37,805 nucleotides of DNA. Source: Bacteroidota bacterium (GTDB taxonomy: Bacteria > Bacteroidota > Bacteroidia > Flavobacteriales > Flavobacteriaceae). Below the pieces are notes generated by a model, which saw only the letters and a list, made by a program, of their open reading frames with translations, was not told where the DNA came from and ran no database searches. The stretch is taken from positions 1-37,805 of the forward strand of contig JAJRQR010000149.1 of NCBI GenBank assembly GCA_024280145.1. Reading direction: 5' to 3'. Below are positions 32,703 through 37,805 of this stretch, one piece after another (positions within the stretch are counted from its first letter, which is position 1; each line of letters starts with the position of its first letter). Position numbers and translations under genes: made by a program.

Positions 32703-35700
32703 ATGAAACGAATTATCACAAAATTAAAATGGTTATTTTCAATCTTAACGATTTTATTTTTTTCAAATTCTTTTGGTCAAACTGAATACGGTATTCAGTT
32801 ACAAGATGAAACAATTGAAATACCTGAAAATATAGAAACATTTCAATGGGGTCAAATGCCAGAATCATCTCGTATAAATAACGGATATATAGGATGGGTT
32901 CAGTTTTTTGAAACTCCTGTTCAAGATATTCAAAATAGTTTTAGGGCTAATGAGCTTGAACTTATTGAGTACATTCCAAATAAAACTTATTTATTTTACT
33001 TCCCAAATTCAACTTCAATTGAATTTTTGAAAAATAGTGGTGTACGTTCTATAGTACCTGTAGACGGGCAATATAAATTGAGCCCTAATCTAAAAAATGG
33101 AATTATTGGTGACTGGGCTTCTGAAGGAGATAATATTTTGGTAACACTTCAGTTTCATAAATATGTATCGGTAGATTATGTAATAAATGATTTAGCTAGA
33201 AAACAAATTTCAGTTAAACAACAATATAAAGGGTCTAATAATATTGACCTTTCTATACCTAATAATTGTTTAGAAGATTTATCTAATTTACCTTATGTAA
33301 AATGGGTTGAAGTTCTTGTTGCTCCTTCAATAAAGGATGATACTCGTGGAAGAAGTTTACATAGATCAAGTAATTTAGATACACAAACGGGAGCTGGAAG
33401 AAATTATACAGGAGCTGGTATTGGTGTAATGGTGAGAGATGATGGTATTGTTGGTCCTCATATTGATTTTCAAGGAAGGATAGATAATTCTATGGCTTCT
33501 GGAACAGGGCAAACTCACGGTGATGGTGTTGGAGGTATTATGGCGGGAGCAGGAAATTTAGATCCTTCAATGAGAGGTATGGCAGCAGGTTCTAATGTGT
33601 TTGTCGTAAATTATGCTTCAAATTTTTTAGATTCAGCAACACAAACTTATATCAATAATGGAGATGTTCAAATTACAAACTCTTCATATAGTAACGGTTG
33701 TAATGATGGTTATACTACAATAACACAAACCGTAGACACCCAAACAAGAGATATCCCAACTCTTTTACATGTATTTTCAGCAGGAAATTCTAATAATAAT
33801 AACTGTGGTTATGGAGCAGGTGATCAATGGGGAAATATTACTGGAGGTCATAAACAAGGGAAAATGTAATTGCAACAGCAAATGTTTTCTTTGACGGAAG
33901 TTTGGTAAATTCAAGTAGTAGAGGTCCAGCACATGATGGTAGAATAAAACCAGACATTGCTGCAAATGGACAAAATCAAAATTCAACTACAGAAAACAAC
34001 CAATATCAAAGTTTTGGAGGAACTTCTGGAGCTGCTCCGGGTATCGCTGGAATTTCAGCACAATTATATGAAGTTTATGGCGATGCAAATGGTGGCACAT
34101 TACCACAGTCAGCATTAATTAAAGCTGCATTACTTAACACAGCTAATGAAGCTGGAAATATTGGCCCGGACTACAAATTTGGGTGGGGAATTGTAAATGC
34201 ATTAAGAGCAGGAACCTTACTAGAAGACGGTAGATATCTTTCAGATAATATATCACAAGGAAACACAAACAATCACACAATTAATATTCCTTCTGGAACT
34301 ACTCAAGTGCGATTTATGGTATATTGGAGCGACCCTGCTGCTGCACCAGGAGCAAGTCCTGCACTTGTTAATGATTTGGATTTAATTGTTACTGATCCTT
34401 CATCTGGAACTCACGAACCATGGATTTTAGATCCAACTCCTAATGCAACAACATTAAATTTACCCGCAACATTAGGACCTGACCATTTAAATAATATGGA
34501 ACAAGTATTACTTAATAACCCTATTTCTGGAGATTATGATATTGATATTACCGGGTTTAATGTTCCTTCGGGGCCACAAGAATATTTTGTGGTTTATGAA
34601 ATTATCTCGAATGAATTAACTATGACATATCCAAACGCAGGTGAATCTTTTGCTCCTGGTGAAACAGAATCCTTACATTGGGATGCTATAAATACAACTG
34701 ATGATTTTATACTAGAATATTCAACTGATAATGGTGGTTCTTGGAACACAATTACAACTGTAAGTTCTACAACTTATAACTATGCTTGGTCAATTCCAAA
34801 TTCAGTTACTGGAGAAGCACTTGTTAGAGTTACAAGTGGTGCTTTTTCAGACGAAAGTGATGGTGTATTTTCTATCGCTAGTTTAGCAACGAATGTGGAG
34901 GCTTCACAAATCTGTCCAAATGAAGCTACTTTTTCTTGGAGTCCCGTACAAGATGCGGAATCTTATGATTTTTATATTTTAGGAAGCACTTACATGGATT
35001 TAATTGGAAATTCTGCTACTCCTTCATTCACATATTCTATTACAAATCCTAATGATGAAATTTGGGCAGCGGTTATAGCTAAAAACAATACTGAGGGTTG
35101 GGAAAGTAGAAGAACAATAGCTATTTATCATCCTGGAGGTCTTGTAAATTGTTCTTTAGCTGATGATTTATCTTTAGTAAATATTAATAATGATTCAAAT
35201 GATTTTAATTTTGTTTGTGATGCAACACCAGCGATTATTTCAGCAACAATTAGAAACTCAGGAATAAATAGTCAAAGTAATTTTATTATTTCCTACCAAA
35301 TAGATAGTGAGCCTATTGTTGAAGAAATATATACTGGCACATTAAATTCTGGACAACAAGATGTTTTTGACTTTGCAACAGAAGTGGATATTACTACAGA
35401 AGGAGAATATACACTGGTTGTTAGAGTTGAACTTTCAGGAGATTTAAACCCTTCTAACGATGAATCAACTTTAGATTTTTATGCTGTTACGCAAGCAACT
35501 GCATTAAATTTTGAGGAAGATTTTGAAACAAATGGAATGCCTCCTTTGGGATGGGTTATAGGAAACTTAGATGGCAACACAACTTGGGTTGAAAGAACAG
35601 GTATTACTGGTATTGATGGTAATGCAAGTGTGACGGCTTTTATTGATAATTTTTCTTATAATGCTCCAGGACAAGAAGATAGTATCCAAACAGAAATATT

Positions 35701-36301
35701 TGATTTAAGTAATACAACTGTCCCTTCATTATCTTTTGATTTAGCAAAAGCACAATATTCAGTCTCCTTTTCAGATGCTTTTAGAGTAGATATTTCAATA
35801 AATTGTGGAGATACATTTACAACAATTTATGAAAAAGATGGATTAGATTTATCAACTGTAGGGGGTTATATTACTTCAAACTGGACACCAAATTCAGCTA
35901 ATGATTGGCGAACAGAAATAATAGATTTAACTCCTTTTGAAGGTGAAAATGTGCTTTTCAAATTTGTAAATATTAACGGTTATGGCAACAGTACATTAAT
36001 AGATAATATTAATGTTTTTGCTGAAACTTTAGGAGTAATAGACAATGATTTATCGGGTATTTCACTTTATCCTAATCCAAGTGCAGAAAAAGTTTTTATA
36101 AAATTTGATTCTAATATTGGGAGTTATTTTGAAATTAATATTGTTAATAGTCTAGGGCAAATTGTTGGAGAAATTGAAAAATCTCCAATCAACGGAAATG
36201 AAGAACTTTCTATTAATGTATCAAATTATAGTAGTGGACTATATTTTATTAGAATAAAAATTGATAATAATATTACAACTAAAAAATTATTAATTGAATA
36301 A
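32703..36301 (+). CDS. Secreted subtilisin-like (S8) protease with T9SS tail, frameshifted
   Basis: Restored length 1199 aa. Signal peptide FSILTILFFSNSFGQ, then a prodomain of about 210 residues. The first ORF (32703-33869) holds catalytic Asp246 (VMVRDDGIVGPHIDF) and His272 (THGDGVGGIMAG). The second (33902-36301) holds the Ser in FGGTSGAAPGIAG. After the protease come a beta-sandwich (about residues 470-550), a Ser-Thr-Kinase-like Ig region (TYPNAGESFAPGETESLHWD), an Fn3-like part, a CARDB-like part, a MAM/choice-of-anchor-like jelly roll, and a type A T9SS sorting domain (LYPNPSAEKVFIKF...). One A is missing in the run at 33861-33864: GGGAAAATGTAATT should read GGGAAAAATGTAATT (KNVIATANVFF). 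As read, Asp/His and Ser lie in different ORFs. Confidence 0.92.
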
Positions 36302-36361: not shown

Positions 36362-36375
36362 GTAACCATTGTTAC
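36362..36375. promoter_or_regulatory. Putative Crp/Fnr operator upstream of DUF983-crp
   Basis: Perfect dyad GTAAC-CATT-GTTAC. Its centre is 29.5 bases before the -7 box at 36398, so about -41.5 from the expected start of transcription, the classic class II activator position for Crp/Fnr proteins. The same dyad with the same spacing precedes yeeE. Binding by the adjacent regulator is inferred. Confidence 0.6.
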
Positions 36376-36397
36376 AAGAAATAACTACCGCTAAATA

Positions 36398-36405
36398 TAT
36401 ATTTG
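36398..36405 (+). promoter_or_regulatory. -7 box TATATTTG of the DUF983-crp unit
   Basis: A perfect TAnnTTTG 16 bases before the DUF983 ATG at 36422. No good -33 element is evident, as expected for an activator-dependent promoter. Confidence 0.5.
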
Positions 36406-36421
36406 CTGAAATTTCAACCAA

Positions 36422-36811
36422 ATGTTAGGTAAAGGAAATAAACTCTATAGTATTTTCAGAATGAAATGCCCAAGGTGTCATGAAGGTGATTTCTATAAAG
36501 GACATCCTTATAAATTCTCAACTATGGGAAGAGTTAAAGAGGAATGTTCAGAGTGTAAATTAAAATACAATATAGAACCTAGTTTTTATCACGGATCCTA
36601 TTATGTTACTTATGCTTTGGGTGTTGCTTTATTTGTAGTTGTTGGTGTTCTTACTTATTTATTGATTCCAAATGCTGGCCCAAAAACTATATTAATTGCA
36701 ATCTTTGCTTCTCTAGCCATATTATCTCCTTGGTTTTATGCCTTGTCAAAAATTATTTGGATCAACTTCTTTGTAAAATACGATAAAGGAATTTTAAAGA
36801 AAAGGTTGTAG
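36422..36811 (+). CDS. DUF983 family small membrane protein
   Basis: 129 aa. The N-terminus is a zinc-ribbon-like segment (MKCPRCHEGDF...EECSECKLKY, two CxxC pairs), followed by the family pattern IEPSFYHGSYYVTYALG. Two membrane helices follow (VALFVVVGVLTYLLI and TILIAIFASLAILSPWFYAL) and a short basic tail. Function unknown. The Crp/Fnr gene begins 9 bases after its stop, so the two form an operon under the GTAAC-N4-GTTAC promoter. Confidence 0.87.
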   Translation: MLGKGNKLYSIFRMKCPRCHEGDFYKGHPYKFSTMGRVKEECSECKLKYNIEPSFYHGSYYVTYALGVALFVVVGVLTYLLIPNAGPKTILIAIFASLAILSPWFYALSKIIWINFFVKYDKGILKKRL

Positions 36812-36820
36812 ATTTACAAT

Positions 36821-37453
36821 ATGATTCAGGATTTAAAAAACAGCTACGGAAATCTTTTTGAAGATGCCCTACTCGATGAAATAAATCAATTTGGAACTTA
36901 TAAAGATGTTCCAGAAGGGTATCGTCTTATCGAAATTGGTAATTATATAAAATCAATGCCTTTATTAATAAGTGGCGCTATTAAAATTATGCGCGATGAC
37001 GATGATGGTGATGAATTACTTTTGTATTTTCTTGAAAGTGGTGACACTTGTGCAATGACGCTTACTTGTTGCCTCGGAAACACAAAAAGTGAAATTAGAG
37101 CCATCGCAGAATTACCCACAAAACTTATTATGATTCCTATTGAAAAAATGGAAGAATGGACTGGAAAATATAAATCTTGGCGCAATTTTGTTTTTGAAAG
37201 CTATCACAATCGTTTGATGGAAATGTTAGAAACCATCGATAGTATCGCCTTTCTAAAAATGGATGAACGATTGTTAAAGTACCTTCGCGATAAGTCAAAA
37301 ATTAATAATTACGATACTATTTATAGTACACATCAAGAAATTGCTTACGAACTCCATACTTCACGAGTTGTAATTTCTAGACTTTTAAAGAAACTTGAAA
37401 ACCAAGGGAAAATTAAATTGAACCGAAATAATATTAAAATAATTTCACTTTAA
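36821..37453 (+). CDS. Crp/Fnr family transcriptional regulator
   Basis: 210 aa. Residues 1-110 form a cyclic-nucleotide-binding-like beta barrel (IEIGNYIKSMPLLISGAIKI...ELLLYFLESGDTCAMTLTCC). A dimer helix follows (about 115-145), then a winged helix-turn-helix with recognition helix HTSRVVISRLLKKLENQGKI. The usual cAMP-contacting Arg-Ser pair is not evident. Instead there is a cysteine cluster, Cys77, Cys83 and Cys84, in the loop where the ligand would bind, so a redox or metal signal is possible. It follows the DUF983 gene by 9 bases and precedes yeeE. GTAAC-N4-GTTAC dyads in both promoters suggest it controls itself and the transporter. Confidence 0.9.
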   Translation: MIQDLKNSYGNLFEDALLDEINQFGTYKDVPEGYRLIEIGNYIKSMPLLISGAIKIMRDDDDGDELLLYFLESGDTCAMTLTCCLGNTKSEIRAIAELPTKLIMIPIEKMEEWTGKYKSWRNFVFESYHNRLMEMLETIDSIAFLKMDERLLKYLRDKSKINNYDTIYSTHQEIAYELHTSRVVISRLLKKLENQGKIKLNRNNIKIISL

Positions 37454-37565
37454 TATTTTATGTTCAACTTACCATTCATTCCAATAACTGCCTAATAATC
37501 AGAATGTTTTTTGAGTTTTAAACAAAAAATACATTTTTATCTTTTTTTAAAATCATATTTGCTAT

Positions 37566-37579
37566 GTAACAAATGTTAC
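37566..37579. promoter_or_regulatory. Putative Crp/Fnr operator 1 upstream of yeeE
   Basis: Perfect dyad GTAAC-AAAT-GTTAC. The centre is 29.5 bases before the -7-like box at 37602, exactly the spacing seen before the DUF983-crp unit. Confidence 0.6.
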
Positions 37580-37582
37580 TAT

Positions 37583-37596
37583 GCAACCTATGTTAC
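37583..37596. promoter_or_regulatory. Putative Crp/Fnr operator 2 upstream of yeeE (imperfect)
   Basis: GCAAC-CTAT-GTTAC, one mismatch from the dyad, centred 17 bases downstream of operator 1. It overlaps a second palindrome, CCTATG-TTA-CATAGG (37587-37601), which abuts the -7-like box, so occupancy here could block rather than help transcription. Confidence 0.4.
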
Positions 37597-37601
37597 ATAG
37601 G

Positions 37602-37609
37602 TATATTTA
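37602..37609 (+). promoter_or_regulatory. -7-like box TATATTTA of yeeE
   Basis: One mismatch from TAnnTTTG, 21 bases before the ATG at 37631. Paired with operator 1 at class II spacing. Confidence 0.4.
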
Positions 37610-37630: not shown

Positions 37631-37805
37631 ATGGAATTTATACTAGAACCTTGGCCTTGGTATATTGCCGGTCCGTTAATTACTTTGGTGATGTTTCTTC
37701 TTTTTTTCTTCGGAAAGAAATTTGGAGTTTCTTCCAACTTAGAAACTATTTGCGCCATAGGTGGTGCTGGAAATTTAGTCGATTTTTTTAAATTCGATTG
37801 GAAAA
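37631..37805 (+). CDS. YeeE/YedE family sulfur transporter, N-terminal part
   Basis: 58 codons reach the window end without a stop: MEFILEPWPWYIAGPLITLVMFLLFFFGKKFGVSSN, then NLETICAIGGAGNLVDFFKF. The first membrane helix, the GKKFGVSSN turn and the Cys after it fit the YeeE/YedE (Sulf_transp) family, which moves thiosulfate or related sulfur compounds across the inner membrane. In Bacteroidota it is often encoded as two short adjacent halves, which cannot be checked here. Too short for the supplied ORF track. Confidence 0.78.
   Translation, partial: MEFILEPWPWYIAGPLITLVMFLLFFFGKKFGVSSNLETICAIGGAGNLVDFFKFDWK

Follow-up and report, generated by a model that had tools for sequence, protein, structure and literature searches.

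In Acinetobacter baumannii, the response to persulfide is governed by FisR and BigR and includes persulfide dioxygenase, TauE, YeeE/YedE and CydAB (PMC7315123). Of the two regulators, BigR is a repressor of the ArsR family and FisR a sigma-54 activator; both have conserved cysteines. For the Crp/Fnr family, Rodionov et al. reported a correlation between the half-site bases and residues R180 and E181, and noted that the predicted motif of the family member HcpR2, GTAACnnnnGTTAC, accompanies the loss of E181 (PMC1274295). HcpR2, which controls hcp, has a proline at CRP position 181 and occurs in other Bacteroidota. The cyanobacterial regulator NtcA controls nitrogen genes, binds 2-oxoglutarate, recognizes the consensus GTA-N8-TAC and acts by class II activation at about −41.5. 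In E. coli numbering, the −10 hexamer starts at −12, so that a site centred 29.5 bp upstream of it lies at −41.5, the class II position.

Here we describe a Crp/Fnr-family regulator, Crp1, encoded in a window of 37,805 nucleotides (the whole stretch of DNA analysed) from a member of the Flavobacteriaceae. The comparative data make it quite probable that Crp1 is a class II activator which, via GTAAC-N4-GTTAC, runs an autoregulated regulon for sulfide/persulfide detoxification in marine Flavobacteriaceae. Its predicted regulon matches the FisR/BigR set (persulfide dioxygenase, SQR, TauE/SafE, YeeE/YedE and raised cytochrome bd) apart from DUF983. Like FisR and BigR, Crp1 has conserved cysteines and, like FisR, it would be an activator; unlike them, it has a Crp/Fnr fold and would act from −41.5 at a Bacteroidota-type promoter. 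In the open-access literature, neither an earlier Crp-type persulfide regulator nor any described regulator of sulfide/persulfide handling was found for Bacteroidota, and Crp1 is a candidate for this role.

Operators and Promoters in the Window

The original prediction held that perfect dyads precede the DUF983-crp unit and yeeE, that both lie at an identical distance of 29.5 bases from the −7 box, and that neither promoter has a clear −33 box. All of this was borne out (Table 1). The two dyads are the only exact GTAAC-N4-GTTAC sequences in the whole window. TATATTT starts at 36398 and 37602, each time 29.5 bp from the centre of its dyad, and the start codon follows the start of the −7 box after 24 nt in the case of DUF983 (ATG at 36422) and after 29 nt in the case of yeeE (ATG at 37631). 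The yeeE frame is cut by the end of the contig; a full-length relative (locus L042:5809-6366) matches PF04143, Sulf_transp.

Table 1. Positions of the operators, promoter elements and genes discussed in the text
Feature	Position in the window	Strand	Remarks
Operator GTAACCATTGTTAC ahead of the DUF983-crp unit	36362..36375	+	exact dyad, centre 36368.5
−7 box TATATTTG of the DUF983-crp promoter	36398..36405	+	29.5 bp from dyad centre; spacing enriched in relatives
DUF983 protein, 129 aa	36422..36811	+	Pfam PF06170, 25.1 bits vs. cut-off 22.6
Crp1, Crp/Fnr-family regulator, 210 aa	36821..37453	+	Pfam cNMP_binding and HTH_Crp_2; PDB profile matches CRP, NtcA
Operator GTAACAAATGTTAC ahead of yeeE	37566..37579	+	exact dyad, centre 37572.5
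Second yeeE dyad GCAACCTATGTTAC	37583..37596	+	one mismatch; displaced 17 bp downstream relative to the first dyad; about 12.5 bp between its centre and the −7 box
−7 box TATATTTA of the yeeE promoter	37602..37609	+	29.5 bp from centre of first dyad
yeeE, 5' part, 58 codons	37631..37805	+	open frame MEFILEPWPWYIAGP...; contig end = window end

The tandem dyads of the yeeE promoter, the second of which overlies the promoter core, recur 17 bp apart in seven related loci (L040-L043, L057, L094 and L115). The −7 box of these loci is unusually constant, being TATATTTA in all of them. The downstream dyad may serve as a brake at high levels of the regulator.

Conservation of the Operator and Its Spacing

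In the A+T-rich source genome (2.78 Mb), the exact dyad alone turned out to be too near to background, with 9 occurrences vs. 6 for a reversed control; therefore, the composite of dyad and −7 box was used as the genome-wide marker. The genome-wide scan that had been proposed with the original prediction is thus specific when the spacing is included (three dyads with a −7 box at 29.5 bp vs. none in reversed controls) and weak for the dyad by itself. The third spaced site, C46:7704, lies upstream of a persulfide dioxygenase gene. A fourth dyad, C46:9300, has the same spacing to a −7 box with one mismatch (TAGTTTA) and stands ahead of a second persulfide dioxygenase gene. The two enzymes are paralogues encoded in tandem on the minus strand (L150, 6228-7643 and 7813-9234), each with its own operator. 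The remaining five exact dyads (C46:241, C61, C137, C147 and C176) lack a −7 box at this spacing of 29.5 bp; they probably arose by chance.

The 80 closest crp loci taken from other genomes contain 170 exact dyads, while none of three control palindromes with matching composition and geometry occurs in them even once. TAnnTTT is found exactly 29.5 bp downstream of 137 of the 170 dyads, and TAnnTTTG downstream of 87. When both orientations were counted and duplicate contexts removed, a gap of 22 bp between dyad and TAnnTTT appeared 139 times; over the rest of the gap range (0 to 60), the counts averaged 2.3 and did not exceed 9. A TTG at the −33 spacing is present in only 10 of 134 distinct promoters, which suggests that they are probably activator-dependent; TG occurs right behind the dyad in 69 of the 134. 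Read from the sequence, this scarcity of TTG and the position of about 139 of the 170 dyads at 29.5 bp from the start of TAnnTTT point to class II promoters. In a profile of 136 distinct sites, T precedes the dyad in 89% and occupies the last spacer position in 84%; behind the dyad, T (73%) and G (58%) are preferred, and nothing more is conserved until the −7 box.

Since the spacing counts used dyads picked by their sequence, a gene-first footprint was run as a non-circular check, in which an exact dyad was sought no more than 150 bp upstream of the start of each orthologue. Such a dyad precedes 51 of 58 genes for persulfide dioxygenase, 43 of 48 for TauE/SafE and 5 of 7 for SulP. Phylogenetic footprinting had been proposed for both promoters of the window, and at both the dyads are kept: in 16 of 18 DUF983 orthologues, 15 of which also show the −7 box at a distance of 29.5 bp, and in 19 of 33 yeeE orthologues, more than one third of which have none inside 150 bp. 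The operon-internal second yeeE-type gene gave 0 of 28, other genes gave 17 of 466, and shuffled upstream regions gave 0.

Among 150 genomes of the family, the composite GTAAC-N4-GTTAC-N22-TAnnTTT occurs at 319 sites in 103 genomes, vs. 9 sites for a reversed control. Its presence falls with the similarity of the crp orthologue, from 52/52 genomes (about 64% identity or more) over 27/31, 20/36 (43-56% identity) and 1/8 to 2/22 (no crp match); these counts ignore shared ancestry, and genomes without crp tend to be small. The group at 43-56% identity usually has the gene order crp-yeeE-yedE-tauE-persulfide dioxygenase, and its recognition helix is the same. In this more distant group (about 50% identity, L156-L171) the operators are nevertheless often relaxed to GTGAC-N4-GTCAC or GTAAT, with the spacing of 29.5 bp unchanged. 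Of 30 genomes that belong to the class and not to the family, 8 have the site; beyond the class it was found in only 4 of about 150, which is near the control level.

Predicted Target Genes

The first genes downstream of 170 spaced sites, annotated by Pfam, code most often for persulfide dioxygenase with MBL and rhodanese domains (54) and TauE/SafE (47), followed by DUF983 (15), YeeE (10), Crp (7), SulP (7), an outer-membrane efflux protein (6), an HMA-type protein (5), an SQR-like flavoprotein (3) and, once each, cytochrome bd subunit I and a YgaP-like membrane protein. The name SQR is our own reading of a 90-residue fragment whose Pyr_redox_2 match is just under the cut-off. Behind 22 sites lies crp or DUF983-crp; crp itself thus appears to be a target, directly or via DUF983-crp, which supports autoregulation. 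Comparison of the genomes establishes the operator, its spacing, the predicted target genes and their linkage to crp1.

Control of sulfur uptake and of a DUF983 protein had been forecast. YeeE and DUF983 are indeed among the predicted targets, and the target set is wider than that. It points to a regulon for sulfide/persulfide (reactive sulfur) detoxification, of which sulfur uptake via YeeE is one part, and we count the rhodaneses, the SQR-like protein and cytochrome bd within the putative detoxification set. The composite operator is predictive in that it names candidate regulon targets in about a hundred genera.

L042 (6854-8470) and L095 encode a fusion protein of 538 aa that joins a 4Fe-4S ferredoxin domain to an NrfD domain (PF13247 and PF03916). 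In near relatives it follows the yeeE pair or stands behind the operator itself. The fusion is likely to be part of a molybdoenzyme for sulfur compounds.

The Regulator Crp1

Crp1 belongs to the Crp/Fnr superfamily, whose members combine a beta-roll of the cNMP-binding type at the N-terminus with a Crp-type winged helix at the C-terminus: PF00027 and PF13545 both score above the cut-off, and the top Foldseek matches of its predicted model (mean pLDDT 86.8) are CRP/FNR structures. The closest solved structure, 3dv8, a Crp/Fnr protein of Eubacterium rectale, carries cysteines where Crp1 has C77 and C83. In 76 sequences down to 48% identity, C77 and C83 of Crp1 are invariant and C84 is at least 90% conserved. 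In a profile alignment, these residues fall beside the cyclic-nucleotide site of CRP, of which Glu72 has no counterpart in Crp1. We infer from their conservation and position that Crp1 senses sulfur via C77/C83/C84 in the effector domain; the cysteine region is the least confident part of the model (block means of 67-69 for residues 71-90), so that this role is stated with reserve.

The recognition helix of Crp1 is TSRVVISRLL. The DNA contacts R180-E181-R185 of CRP correspond to R182-V183-R187, which resembles the R-V-...-R of NtcA. R182 is kept in the relatives of Crp1, and Val183, at the position of CRP Glu181, is at least 90% conserved. With the arginine retained and the glutamate replaced by valine, Crp1 and its operator fit the published rule that links helix and operator (PMC1274295). 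The operator had been described as unlike the E. coli CRP and FNR half-sites. It does differ from them, and it is not unprecedented, being identical to the HcpR2 motif published earlier (PMC1274295); as a sequence, therefore, it is not new.

Several known members of the family were considered as possible identities of Crp1. HcpR2 shares the operator consensus and the Crp/Fnr family; however, it has Pro where Crp1 has Val183, and no hcp gene was found in the source genome or 15 related genomes, in a search that was positive for the control genomes. This argues that the Crp1 regulon is not an HcpR regulon, and the identity with HcpR2 was rejected. HcpR of P. gingivalis (9day) is a distant match to Crp1 with an E-value of 0.15. 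NtcA has a similar helix (TRVTVTRLL vs. SRVVISRLL), and the operator fits its consensus GTA-N8-TAC, yet the NtcA equivalog score of 35.2 bits vs. a cut-off of 244.95 excludes orthology. E. coli CRP, as a class II activator, has the same fold, the same homodimer symmetry of the operator and the same 29.5 bp from the site centre to the start of the −10/−7 element. It differs in its half-site (TGTGA vs. GTAAC), in Glu72 and in the promoter, which is here of the Bacteroidota −7 type. A cAMP-dependent CRP was rejected on an equivalog score of 53.7 bits vs. 266 and on the unmatched Glu72; the position of Arg82 lies outside the conserved columns. Crp1 is not a 4Fe-4S FNR either: such proteins have an N-terminal cysteine cluster plus a central Cys, and in Crp1 cysteine conservation is confined to C77, C83 and C84, all of which lie within the effector domain.

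Proposed Mechanism and Alternatives

In the mechanism that we propose, a Crp1 homodimer would bind GTAAC-N4-GTTAC centred near −41.5, next to and upstream of a −7 box of the Bacteroidota type (TAnnTTTG) with no good −33 box. Bound Crp1 would then bring RNA polymerase to the DUF983-crp operon from which it is itself expressed, to yeeE-yedE and, at other loci of the genome, to the persulfide dioxygenase operons. The signal would be persulfide or polysulfide, read via C77/C83/C84 in the effector domain. In persulfide-sensing regulators as a functional class, DNA binding is controlled by di/polysulfides that form reversibly on conserved cysteines; of these features, Crp1 shows the conserved cysteines. 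The autoregulated class II Crp/Fnr activator of the original prediction is consistent with the family-wide site, its spacing, the targets and the co-occurrence with crp; binding of Crp1 to the operator, activation rather than repression, sulfur as the signal and the chemistry of the cysteines are what we infer beyond that. If so, this would be an unusually clean Crp/Fnr class II case at a non-canonical Bacteroidota promoter, with a spacing fixed to the base.

As a further hypothesis, a cyclic-nucleotide-type fold may have been turned into a sulfur sensor. A lineage-specific Crp/Fnr class would sense persulfide/polysulfide directly, by means of three cysteines located in what was once the cyclic-nucleotide pocket. 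It would replace regulators of the FisR/SqrR/CstR type in Flavobacteriaceae and would induce persulfide dioxygenase, the exporters and a sulfide-resistant respiration. We regard this broader proposal as tentative and give it slightly less than an even chance.

Crp1 might instead activate the same regulon as an FNR/CRP-like protein in response to another signal, such as redox state, NO or a nucleotide, its cysteines having no part in sulfur sensing. Cysteine conservation by itself is no proof of sensing, proteins of the CRP fold bind many effectors, and 3dv8, the top PDB relative, which has no known effector, also carries cysteines in the C77/C83 region. Nevertheless, the predicted targets of Crp1 are nearly all persulfide/sulfide genes, hcp, the nitrosative-stress gene that regulators of the HcpR group usually control, was not found in any of the 16 genomes tested, and the ribose-binding Glu72 of CRP is unmatched, so we consider a different signal possible and rather unlikely. 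Crp1 might also repress these promoters, or both repress and activate them; this is suggested by the second dyad at yeeE and its counterparts in the seven related loci, since a dimer bound over the promoter core would block the polymerase. Nearly all other promoters show a single site at the activating position −41.5 and no −33 box, which is the class II pattern and makes repression improbable. A coincidence of dyads and spacing, for which the near-background count of exact dyads in the source genome might speak, is refuted by the conservation of the composite site; together with the spacing enrichment and the gene-first footprint, it reduces the probability of chance to practically nil.

The dyads could also be bound by a second Crp-family protein, Crp2, instead of Crp1. 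Crp2 belongs to the same family and the same functional cluster, being encoded on C46 inside the persulfide dioxygenase operon, in frame after a TPMT-like methyltransferase, and it is found next to crp1 in 8 of the 80 loci. On the other hand, its helix, SREVISR, retains the CRP-type glutamate, for which a GTGA-like half-site is predicted. No close Crp2 orthologue (E ≤ 1e-65) was found in the 149 other sampled genomes of the family, in a search that recovered the known Crp2 positives, and yet about 100 of these genomes carry the operator. Furthermore, operators directly precede crp1, and the presence of the site tracks crp1. With its patchy distribution and different recognition helix, Crp2 is an unlikely binder, marginally less probable even than a repressing Crp1.

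Additional Observations

In the source genome (L150 on C46, 2941-4170, minus strand), the TPMT-like methyltransferase and Crp2 form a single frame of 409 codons. In relatives such as L046, the TPMT-like methyltransferase and the Crp-family regulator are two genes. Upstream of the DUF983-crp operator, at 32703-36301 of the window, a secreted subtilisin-like protein is encoded in two frames of 388 and 799 aa, possibly as a result of a frameshift or an assembly error; in L042 it occupies a single frame of 1196 aa.
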